64,000 nucleotides of DNA from the NCBI GenBank assembly GCA_018057825.1, contig JAGPCY010000024.1:62001-126000 (forward strand). The letters are read 5' to 3'. The notes under the pieces are model-generated. The model was not told the DNA's origin. It was given only the letters and a program-made list of their open reading frames with translations, and searched no databases. The stretch is from Kofleriaceae bacterium (lineage in GTDB: Bacteria; Myxococcota_A; Polyangia; Haliangiales; Haliangiaceae). Of this stretch, positions 25,305 through 45,295 are shown piece by piece (positions within the stretch are counted from its first letter, which is position 1; each line of letters starts with the position of its first letter). The position numbers and the translations under genes were made by a program.

Positions 25305-25424
25305 GGGGACTTTCCGGCCGACCCGATGGGGCGGGCTCACCTGCCAAGAGCCACAACCACGGCCGGTGATTCAGACATTCGTGCGGCGCGATGTCGCAGG
25401 GACGGCGGACCGCGGCGGACCGAA

Positions 25425-25631
25425 GACCGAGGCCGAGGCGGAGACCGAGACCGAGGCCGAGGCCGAGGCGGAGACCGAGACCGAGACCGAGGCCGAGGCG
25501 GAGACCGAGGCGGAGGCCAAGACCGAGGCCGAGGCGGAGACCGAGACCGAGACCGAGGCCGAGGCCGAGGCCGAGACCGAGACCGAGGCCGAGGCGGAGG
25601 CGGAGGAACCCGATCCCGATCCCGATCCCGA
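25425..25631. repeat. Hexamer array 3 (GAGNCC/GAGGCG)
   Basis: About 200 nt of GAGGCC, GAGGCG and GAGACC hexamers, ending in four GATCCC units 2 nt from the EF-G stop. The remaining part of this 329-nt gap (25305-25424) is the upstream region of the DUF2892 gene, where no clear promoter was seen. Confidence 0.9.
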
Positions 25632-27765: not shown

Positions 27766-28680
27766 ATGAACATGCGTTCGTTGTGCGGAGTCGCGCTCGC
27801 GGTCGGGCTGACCGCGGGTGTGGCGGCGGCGCAACCCGACTACAAGGCCGCCGCCGAGCACTACCAGCTCGCCGAGACCGCGATGGCGCGGGGCGCGTAC
27901 ACCGACGCCGCCCTCGAGTACGGGATCGCCTACGACATCACCAAGGACCCGATCCTGTTCTTCAAGATCGGCCAGGCCAACGACAAGGCCGGCCGCTGCG
28001 CGGTCGCCCTCACGTACTACAACCGCTACCTGAAGGAGGGGAACCCGAGCCCGGAGTATCGCCGCCTGACCGAGGAGCGCGTAGTGGCGTGCGGCGCGGC
28101 CGGGACCGACGGGGGCACGGGCGACGGGGGCACGGGCGACGGCGGCACGGGCGACGGCGGCACGGGCGACGGCGGCACGGGTGACGGCGGCACGGGCGAT
28201 GGCGGCACGGGTGACGGCGGCACGGGCGACGGCGGCGCCGGCGATGGCAGCCAGGACGGCGCCCTCGGTGGCCCCGACGCTGGCGGGCCGTCGTTCATCG
28301 ATCAGCCGCAGTCGTGGAAGCGGACCGGCGCCTGGGTCGCGACCGGCCTGACCGTCGGTCTGGCTGCGGCCGGGGTGGTGCTGGCGATGTCGGCCTCGGG
28401 CAGCGAAGAGGATCTGCAACAGCTCCTCGACTTCCGCACCGCCGGACGACCGGCCCGCTACGACGAGGTCCGCGGGACCTACGACAGCCTCCTCGATGAC
28501 GGCGAGCGCTACGATCAGCTCGCGACGGTGGCCTTCATCGGCGCCGGCGCCACCGCCGTGATCGCGACCACCCTGTTCCTCCTCGATCGCGGCGGCCGGG
28601 CCGAGAGCGCCAAGGCCGCTCGGATCCGGCCCGCGGTCGATCGCCGCGGCGGCGGCGTCGTCGTCGGCTGGGAGTTCTGA
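27766..28680 (+). CDS. Periplasmic TPR-like protein with Gly-rich linker and membrane anchor
   Basis: 304 residues. Signal peptide (residues 1-23, cleavage after VAAAQ region), then a helical TPR-like unit ([20 protein letters not shown], then [20 protein letters not shown]), a linker of about nine GGTGD repeats, and two hydrophobic segments (about 190-210 and 250-270). This arrangement, TPR plus low-complexity linker plus two C-terminal spans, recurs in myxobacterial envelope proteins. It ends 2 nt before the next gene, so the two are co-transcribed. Function unknown. Confidence 0.8.
28105..28245 (+). repeat. 15-nt in-frame tandem repeat (GGTGD units)
   Basis: About nine nearly identical 15-nt units around ggcggcacgggcgac in the linker of the TPR protein gene. 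Confidence 0.85.
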
Positions 28681-30537: not shown

Positions 30538-30760
30538 CTCGGCCTCCGCCTCGGCCTCGGTCTCGGCCTCGGTCTCGGCCTCGGTCTCGGCCTCGGCCTC
30601 GGTCTCCGCCTCGGTCTCGGTCTCCGCCTCGGCCTCCGCCTCGGTCTCGGTCTCGGCCTCCGCCTCGGTCTCGGCCTCGGTCTCGGACTCGGTCTCGGTC
30701 TCGGCCTCCGCCTCCGCCTCGGTCTCCGCCTCCGCCTCCGTCTCCGTCTCGGCCTCCCTC
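30538..30760. repeat. Hexamer array 4 (CTCGGN/CTCCGN)
   Basis: More than 200 nt of CTCGGC, CTCGGT, CTCCGC and CTCCGT units filling the convergent gap; the last unit touches the protease stop codon. Confidence 0.92.
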
Positions 30761-31971: not shown

Positions 31972-32496
31972 TCACATCGCGTGGGCCAGGCTGGCCCGCA
32001 GCGCGGCGCGGGCCCGGTGGCCGCGGATCTTGACCGTCGATACCGTCAGCCCGAGGGCGTCGGCGACCTCGGCCTCGCCGAGATCCTCGTCCAGCCGCAG
32101 CTCGAGGACCCGCGAGTACCGCGGGTCGAGCCGCGCCAGGTGACCGCGCAGCGTGTGGTGATCCTGGGCCGTGGCCAGGGCCCGCTCCGGCGTCTCGGTG
32201 GTGGCCAGCAGATCGCGGTCGGCGCCGCTGGGATCGAGGCTGCGGGTCACGCGGCGATGGCGGGCGCGGCGGAGGTGCGAGAGGGCCGACGTCACGGCCA
32301 CCCGGTAGAGCCAGGTGCGGTACCGGGCCTTGCCGGCGAAGGACGCCCGGTGGCGGAACGCCGACAGGAGCGCGTCCTGGGTGGCGTCGTGGGCGTCGTC
32401 CTCGTCGCGGACGATGCGCCGGACGACCGCGTAGACGAATGCGCGGTCGTCCGGGGTGAAGGTCACGGAGCGGTCGCGATCATCCGAATCGTTCAT
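31972..32496 (-). CDS. ECF-type RNA polymerase sigma factor
   Basis: 174 residues. Region 2 (residues about 15-80: VYAVVRRIVRDEDDAHDATQ, then DALLSAFRH, ARYRTWLYRVAVTSALSHL) and region 4 (about 115-170: LDPRYSRVLELRLDEDLGEA, TVSTVKIRGHRARAAL). No anti-sigma gene is next to it, so its control is not evident; the DegS-like protease gene just downstream on the same strand is a possible functional link. ATG at 32496 is preferred over one at 32517 because a TAGACT element lies 7 nt upstream. Confidence 0.9.
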   Translation of the reverse strand: MNDSDDRDRSVTFTPDDRAFVYAVVRRIVRDEDDAHDATQDALLSAFRHRASFAGKARYRTWLYRVAVTSALSHLRRARHRRVTRSLDPSGADRDLLATTETPERALATAQDHHTLRGHLARLDPRYSRVLELRLDEDLGEAEVADALGLTVSTVKIRGHRARAALRASLAHAM

Positions 32497-32503
32497 AACG
32501 GTC

Positions 32504-32531
32504 AGTCTAGGTCGCAATTCGTTCAGCGCAA
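32504..32531 (-). promoter_or_regulatory. Promoter of the ECF sigma gene
   Basis: Minus-strand TTGCGC, a 16-nt spacer and TAGACT (32509-32504), which ends 7 nt before the ATG at 32496. The intergenic DNA up to 32638 is shared with the divergent CarH-like gene and contains no other clear signal. Confidence 0.45.
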
Positions 32532-32638
32532 GGACGATTTGAATGTTTTGTCGTTCGACCTCGGGATCGCGCCCTTACCTGGCCTTTCCCGTGGCGCGTA
32601 ACGGAATTGGCTACCCTCACCTCTAACCGACGAACTCC

Positions 32639-33496
32639 GTGAAACGAGCCCTGTCTCCCAAAGACCTCGCTGCCGCCATCGGCGTGAGCGAGTCCTCCCT
32701 GAAGCGCTGGGCCGACTCGGGCAAGATCGCCGTGGTCCGCACCGAGGGCGGCCATCGCCGCATCGACATCTCCGAGGCGGTGCGCTTCGTGCGCGAGAGC
32801 GGCGTCCAGCTCGTGCGCCCCGACGTGCTCGGTCTGGCCGAGGTCGCGGCGGTCGCCAACGAGGACGGCCAGGGCGAGGCGCTCTACCAGCACCTCGCCG
32901 CCGGCAACCTGCCCGAGGTCCGCGGGCTCCTCGTCGGGATGTACCTGCGCGGCCAGGCGGTCGCCGCCATCTGCGACGGGCCGATCCTGGCGGCGATGAC
33001 GCGGCTGGGCGAGCTGTGGCGCCACGACAGCGCCGGCGTGTTCATCGAGCACCGCGCGACCGACCTGATCGTCCAGGCGGTGACCCAGCTCCGCGCGCTG
33101 ATCGAGCAGCCGCGCGAGAGCCACCGCGCGGTCGGCGGCGCCCCGGCCGGCGACCCGTATCTGCTGCCGTCGATGCTGGCGGCCACGGTGCTGGCCAGCG
33201 AGGGGGTCCGCGCGGTCAACCTCGGCCCGGACACCCCGATCGGGTCGCTGCGGCACGCGGTCGCACATCACCAGCCACGCCTGGTCTGGTTGAGCGTTTC
33301 GTCGCCGCCGCCGCCCGGGCTAGGCGCCGAGCTCGGCCGCTTCGCGCGCGAGCTGACCGACACCGGGGCGACCCTGGTGATCGGCGGGCGCCACCGCGCC
33401 GACGTCGCCGCCGCCGCCCGCGGCGCGACGGTCGTGACGACCATGGCGGAGCTGGCGGCCTTCGCCCGCGGCCTCTCGGTCGGCGCCCGGGGCTGA
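32639..33496 (+). CDS. CarH/LitR-like MerR-family regulator with altered cobalamin site
   Basis: 285 residues. A MerR-type DNA-binding domain (residues 1-60: KDLAAAIGVSESSLKRWAD, EGGHRRI) is followed by the helical cobalamin-cap domain (75-155) and a Rossmann-like B12-binding domain (165-285). Trp127, Glu137 and His138 preserve the W-x9-EH motif of CarH photoreceptors. The D-x-H-x-x-G cobalamin motif reads Asp172-Pro-Tyr-Leu-Leu-Pro177, so the axial His is Tyr174 and the Gly is missing. It probably represses genes in a DNA-binding oligomer, perhaps without B12-dependent light sensing. GTG start. Divergent from the ECF sigma gene. Confidence 0.88.
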   Translation: MKRALSPKDLAAAIGVSESSLKRWADSGKIAVVRTEGGHRRIDISEAVRFVRESGVQLVRPDVLGLAEVAAVANEDGQGEALYQHLAAGNLPEVRGLLVGMYLRGQAVAAICDGPILAAMTRLGELWRHDSAGVFIEHRATDLIVQAVTQLRALIEQPRESHRAVGGAPAGDPYLLPSMLAATVLASEGVRAVNLGPDTPIGSLRHAVAHHQPRLVWLSVSSPPPPGLGAELGRFARELTDTGATLVIGGRHRADVAAAARGATVVTTMAELAAFARGLSVGARG

Positions 33497-36657: not shown

Positions 36658-36662
36658 CGGGC

Positions 36663-36882
<220 letters not shown>

Positions 36883-45116: not shown

Positions 45117-45153
45117 GAAGCCGGGCCGACGGCGGGAGCGACGTGTCGGGGGG

Positions 45154-45293
45154 CCGAACCCGAGACCGAACCCGAGACCGAGACCGAGACCGAGGCCGAG
45201 ACCGAGGCCGAGACCGAGACCGAGGCCGAGACGGAGACCGAGGCCGAGACCGAGGCCGAGACGGAGACCGAGGCCGAGACCGAGGCCGAGACG
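45154..45293. repeat. Hexamer array 6 (GAGACC/GAGGCC)
   Basis: About 140 nt of GAGACC, GAGGCC and GAGACG units between the two minus-strand genes, ending 2 nt from the FHA-GGDEF stop codon. Confidence 0.92.
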
Positions 45294-45295
45294 GG

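Follow-up and report, generated by a model that had tools for sequence, protein, structure and literature searches.

The regulator gene and its predicted product

The window, by which the whole analysed stretch of 64,000 nucleotides is meant, encodes a CarH/CtMerR-like transcriptional regulator, recognised from its open reading frame, profile searches and a structure model, next to a divergent ECF sigma factor gene. The two genes and the elements predicted between them are the following.

31972-32496, minus strand: divergent ECF sigma factor gene (Sigma70_r2 and r4_2); the likely ATG is at 32496, the mechanically called ORF runs from 32517
32487-32504, plus strand: predicted operator AATCGTTCA TAACGGTCA, an exact consensus match overlapping the ECF start codon
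32531-32548, minus strand: second, weaker operator-like site with 2 mismatches
32598-32602, plus strand: GTAAC, the proposed -35 element of an ECF-dependent promoter of the regulator gene
32639-33496, plus strand: regulator gene, 285 aa, GTG start
32639-32800, plus strand: BldC/HTH_17-like DNA-binding domain, residues 1-54 (HTH_17, MerR and BldC models; matches to 6ama and 6amk)

In the N-terminus of the regulator the Pfam models HTH_17 (31.3 bits) and MerR (29.4 bits) both score above their cut-offs, and the BldC model gives 40 bits against a cut-off of 77. The C-terminal half matches B12-binding_2 above the Pfam cut-off, and the model of the Rossmann half, B12-binding, reaches 15.9 bits against 32.1. 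An AlphaFold2 model built from a 76-row alignment has a mean pLDDT of 96.4 and a pTM of 0.92, its best Foldseek matches are the crystal structures of TtCarH and CtMerR with bound cobalamin, and the order of HTH, four-helix bundle and Rossmann domain is that of the CarH fold. The closest solved structure by sequence is CtMerR (8JBS, E 2.5e-25), followed by TtCarH (E 3.8e-9), and orthologues in many genomes are 43-63% identical.

As judged from its sequence, the regulator is CarH-like and is without the cobalt-ligating histidine, so that the comparison with CarH and CarA proposed in the original prediction upheld the general kinship. It did not, however, yield a CarH orthologue: the NCBIfam CarH model NF052513 scores 52.6 bits against a curated equivalog cut-off of 400, the DNA-binding domain is BldC-like, and the nearest solved relative is CtMerR. 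The protein is best described as a new variant within the CarH/CtMerR kind and not as a separate kind. No description of the tyrosine-bearing clade or of its operator was found in the openly accessible literature, which is weak evidence as subscription journals mostly lie outside it.

Elsewhere in the window, degenerate 6-bp repeats (CCGAGG/CCGAGA or the complement) form four arrays of about 140-220 bp each, at 25418-25606, 30538-30757, 36662-36881 and 45152-45294, and long spurious ORFs result; low-complexity repeats of a similar kind recur at another place in the host genome (L158) as well as in G027 (L184). A 15-bp tandem array at 28107-28248, inside an ORF at 27766-28680 on the plus strand, encodes GDGGT repeats.

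A B12-type pocket with tyrosine at the cobalt-ligand position

The residues that would line the pocket were located in the gene and followed through 76 aligned relatives.

33017-33019, plus strand: Trp127 of W-x9-EH (73 of 76 relatives)
33023-33025, plus strand: His129, a clade residue (60 of 76)
33047-33052, plus strand: Glu137-His138 of W-x9-EH (each 76 of 76)
33152-33169, plus strand: D172-P-Y174-L-L-P177, codons GAC CCG TAT CTG CTG CCG, the counterpart of the CarH D/E-x-H-x-x-G/P motif with Tyr for the cobalt-ligating His
33224-33238, plus strand: G196-P-D-T-P200, the GxxxP pocket element (Gly in 76 of 76, Pro in 75 of 76)
33383-33388, plus strand: G249-G250, the GG element of the B12 domain (75 of 76 and 76 of 76)

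The W-x9-EH motif that covers the upper face in CarH is therefore present as Trp127, Glu137 and His138, and Tyr174 does stand in place of the cobalt-ligating histidine, both as had been originally predicted. The loss of the final glycine of the motif, also regarded as informative there, did not hold up, since the CarH motif is given as D/ExHx2G/P and the terminal proline is an accepted variant (PMC9304148); the change of histidine to tyrosine alone is thus informative, and altered or absent cobalamin use could fairly be argued from the missing ligand. The light-responsive signature of SignatureFinder is likewise incomplete, as GxxW, EH and GxxxP are present and GxxH reads GDPY.

The relatives were gathered from GTDB with two peptide patterns, which returned 79 loci, mostly in Planctomycetota (many of them Phycisphaerae) with further ones in Myxococcota and a few other groups. 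One of the patterns spans EHR, so that the 100% conservation of Glu-His is partly a matter of selection, while the Trp, Tyr, GxxxP and GG positions lie outside both. At the position of residue 174 the alignment has Tyr in 62 rows, His in nine, Ser in four and Phe in one, and in the same rows the Trp, Glu-His, GxxxP and GG elements are near-invariant. Orthologues in the host family read DPY(L/I/V)(L/I)P nearly throughout, the one exception being DQHLLP (L011, the same gene as L040). Judging by this alignment, the pattern goes well beyond chance: Tyr174 is conserved across a large clade and is not a lone loss, a point that the original prediction had missed. Other residues appear to change along with it: His129, located two residues past Trp127 and without a counterpart at that place in TtCarH or CtMerR, accompanies 56 of the 62 Tyr rows versus three of the nine His rows (Fisher p 4e-4, kinship ignored), and P173 and P197 shift together with Tyr174.

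In a quick maximum-likelihood tree, which has SH-aLRT support only, a midpoint root and many weak inner forks, the Tyr-rich rows form one clade (SH-aLRT 99) with the CtMerR-like His rows outside, and His recurs at several separate tip lineages within the clade. We read this as a single change to tyrosine followed by several reversions to histidine, which would be easily understood if a corrinoid is still bound in the pocket. The host itself uses B12, since its genome encodes methylmalonyl-CoA mutase and MetH; MetH is the sole other protein there with a B12-binding_2 domain, and a search of the genome found no CarH or CarA.

Predicted operator, regulon and gene neighbourhoods

Tandem 9-bp repeats with the consensus AAWCGTTCA stand upstream of the family genes. 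The sequence AATCGTTCA is found in 31 of 80 upstream regions, where 1.1 would be expected from the remaining DNA of these loci, and pairs of repeats at exactly 9-bp spacing number 33 against about one in the background. In the window, the site at 32487-32504 covers the ECF start codon and its conservation is hence partly coding. BldC binds 9-bp direct repeats of the form AATTXXXXC head to tail (PMC5859096), and the predicted 9-bp repeat operator is fitting for a BldC-like DNA-binding domain. In planctomycete loci the repeat often lies downstream of a TATAAT-like box, and relatives have repeats between a TTGACA and the ECF start, although a sigma-70 promoter scan of window positions 32400-32700 found none; such placement would suit a repressor. 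GTAAC precedes most of the Myxococcota family genes by 34-41 bp and, in nine of the 14 relatives scanned, precedes crtY by 21-58 bp; it probably serves ECF-dependent promoters as their -35 element.

When the 8.9 Mb host genome was scanned with the 18-bp operator pattern, allowing up to two mismatches, five matches were obtained versus one for the reversed pattern. Two of the five lie in the regulator's own promoter region, one lies 39 bp before the lycopene cyclase gene that heads a crtY-crtE-crtI-crtB operon, another is located some 70 bp upstream of a fasciclin gene, and for the fifth (C69) no meaningful target was recognised. Scans of other genus members returned mostly self sites, with crt sites at equal stringency confined to the host genome, so the direct link between operator and crt genes consists of one genome together with physical linkage elsewhere. 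Photolyase was also considered as a regulon target in the host genome and was rejected, as a profile search gave no FAD_binding_7 match there. A two-mismatch operator-like site in another genome (L179, G024:C18:11132-11149) lies by a LexA-like ORF and may be due to chance.

Among 80 loci, the neighbours of the regulator genes include fasciclin (22), DUF2867 (19), photolyase (18), FolE, the GTP cyclohydrolase I (17), and a DUF1731-type epimerase (17), with at least one of these at 48 loci. FolE is the divergent neighbour in its 17 loci, fasciclin genes directly adjoin family members in planctomycetes, and a divergent ECF sigma factor is present at 12 loci, namely the window and 11 further ones in Myxococcota. 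PhrB and FolE are known members of the Pseudomonas LitR light regulon (PMC9758184).

The carotenoid operons of Kofleriaceae relatives (L195-L199) are paired with a true CarH, a CtMerR-like protein, or a Tyr-type regulator with an ECF factor. The regulator, the ECF gene and the crt operon lie together on one stretch in G025 (L195) and G011 (L198), crt genes are found beside a His-bearing CarH in G008 and G020, and in G024 they lie beside a His-bearing CtMerR-like protein. As the Tyr-type protein adjoins crt where G008 and G020 have CarH, it occupies the CarH slot. Two paralogues, L030 (G023:C101) and L032 (G026:C1569), have kept the DNA-binding domain, whereas their sensor halves are without W, EH and DPY; an ECF gene still lies next to them, together with an operator-like site, and they are fully degenerate versions of the switch.

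Proposed mechanism and relation to known light regulators

We propose that the regulator is a transcriptional repressor of a light or photo-oxidative-stress regulon that takes the place of CarH/LitR in the host. Its BldC-like domain would bind the AAWCGTTCA tandem repeats head to tail, sitting over its own promoter and that of the divergent ECF gene as well as those of crtY-E-I-B and the fasciclin gene, and the ECF factor held down in this manner would drive the crt genes and the regulator from GTAAC-type promoters. The C-terminal half retains the fold of CarH together with its upper-face pocket and has a tyrosine under the cobalt position; it would bind a corrinoid, probably AdoCbl, without histidine ligation, and light would free the regulator from DNA. 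To this reading as a whole we assign a probability of about 0.5. The fold, the pocket residues, the conserved tyrosine, the repeat motif and the gene context can be read from the sequences themselves; DNA binding and repression by the regulator are very probable, and a light-linked regulon is likely. Corrinoid binding without histidine is an evenly balanced matter, and direct light sensing by the regulator is a slightly doubtful one. A broader proposal, that a widespread clade binds AdoCbl through a non-His lower face with tyrosine under the cobalt, His129 perhaps acting as the ligand from above, and still switches DNA binding by light, is rather unlikely, and the role of His129 as a ligand is speculation.

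Corrinoid binding is favoured because the pocket is kept, histidine returns in the clade, the host uses B12, and other B12 domains without a histidine ligand exist, in which the residue below the cobalt is Trp, Arg, Thr or Leu (PMC13331322). Several results count against the corrinoid and light reading: the H177A substitution abolished AdoCbl binding and tetramer formation in TtCarH and H193A in the M. xanthus CarH led to loss of function in vivo (PMC4557120), a B12 domain with Arg at the lower-ligand place bound only OHCbl and not AdoCbl (PMC11796333), an FAD_binding_7 photolyase is missing from the host, and the degenerate paralogues L030 and L032 adjoin an ECF gene and operator, so that the circuit can exist without the pocket. 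The essential histidine of CarH and these paralogues also argue for a B12-independent repressor, in which the domain would be an oligomerisation scaffold without corrinoid and the signal, be it light, singlet oxygen or cell stress, would arrive via a partner or the ECF sigma factor. Precedents are CarA, whose action does not involve B12 and which CarS releases (PMC8156234), and class II LitR, which pairs with a short LOV protein and has lost B12 use but retains control over phrB, folE and further light genes (PMC9758184). Such an arrangement is somewhat less likely than not. CarA and class II LitR have lost the Trp or the Rossmann half, whereas the pocket residues here are kept across phyla; the LOV signature NCRFxQG was absent from the seven genus genomes scanned, which lowers the case for a LOV partner although a single strict pattern is not proof, and no CarS-like gene or anti-sigma factor was recognised beside the ECF gene.

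It is improbable that the pocket holds another chromophore or ligand, such as haem or another tetrapyrrole, a flavin or a pterin, to which Tyr174 and perhaps also His129 would provide new contacts. The association of these two residues and the accompanying shifts of P173 and P197 would agree with it, as would the divergent FolE, the maker of a pterin precursor, but the repeated return of histidine in separate lineages favours a cobalt-bearing ligand, and FolE is also found within the known LitR clusters (PMC9758184) and is not necessarily a clue to the ligand. A degraded gene or a chance resemblance with no present function might be suspected from the subthreshold B12-binding score; this is hardly credible in view of the intact ORF, the orthologues, the near-invariant residues, the high-confidence fold, and the conserved operator and context, and conservation refutes it.

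The corrinoid-bound repressor remains our preferred reading, and the clade is of interest beyond it. CarH photochemistry is thought to depend on the lower histidine, and a clade that keeps the pocket without it, resides in light-gene clusters and regains the histidine is a natural experiment on cofactor change or loss in B12 sensors; the swap could reveal a new mode of light sensing or a way of dropping B12. The predicted operator and regulon and the gene context, which the original prediction had also missed, point to light and carotenoid control. The predicted operator and regulon make the circuit directly testable, and they bring Planctomycetota, together with a myxobacterial family whose member here has no findable CarH or CarA, into the range of CarH-type carotenoid circuits.

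Among the known systems, BldC has a similar DNA-binding domain and, like the operator predicted here, a 9-bp direct-repeat site with an A/T-rich start and a terminal C, but is without a sensor domain, whereas the regulator has one. The class II LitR proteins of Pseudomonas (PplR/PmlR) are CarH-type regulators of phr/folE light clusters that are presumed to be B12-independent; they have lost the Rossmann B12-domain similarity and have a LOV partner, whereas the regulator retains the domain and the pocket, with B12-binding_2 above the cut-off and the Rossmann half present in the structure model even though the B12-binding profile falls below it. CarA of Myxococcus xanthus resembles the regulator in being related to CarH, in having a changed B12 site and in belonging to a carotenoid circuit with an ECF sigma factor; the original prediction had drawn this parallel, and it was rejected as the motif pattern is the opposite, CarA retaining the His motif and EH and having lost the Trp (PMC9304148), the regulator retaining the Trp and having lost the His. 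CarH/LitR of Thermus, Bacillus and Myxococcus shares with the regulator the domain order, the fold, W-x9-EH and a control of carotenoid genes that is predicted here, but has an RxWERRY-type DNA-binding domain and a cobalt-ligating histidine in place of the BldC-like domain without such a residue, and its operator is made of 11-bp nnnnTnnACAn repeats (PMC9304148) in contrast to the predicted 9-bp ones. The closest likeness is to CtMerR of Chloracidobacterium thermophilum (PDB 8JBS/8JBT), the nearest solved relative by sequence and among the best by fold, which shares the short BldC-like HTH, the CarH-type helical bundle and the Rossmann domain, as well as GxxW, EH and GxxxP. CtMerR binds AdoCbl and responds to green light (PMC11796333), and where it has His204 as the lower cobalt ligand, the regulator has the tyrosine.
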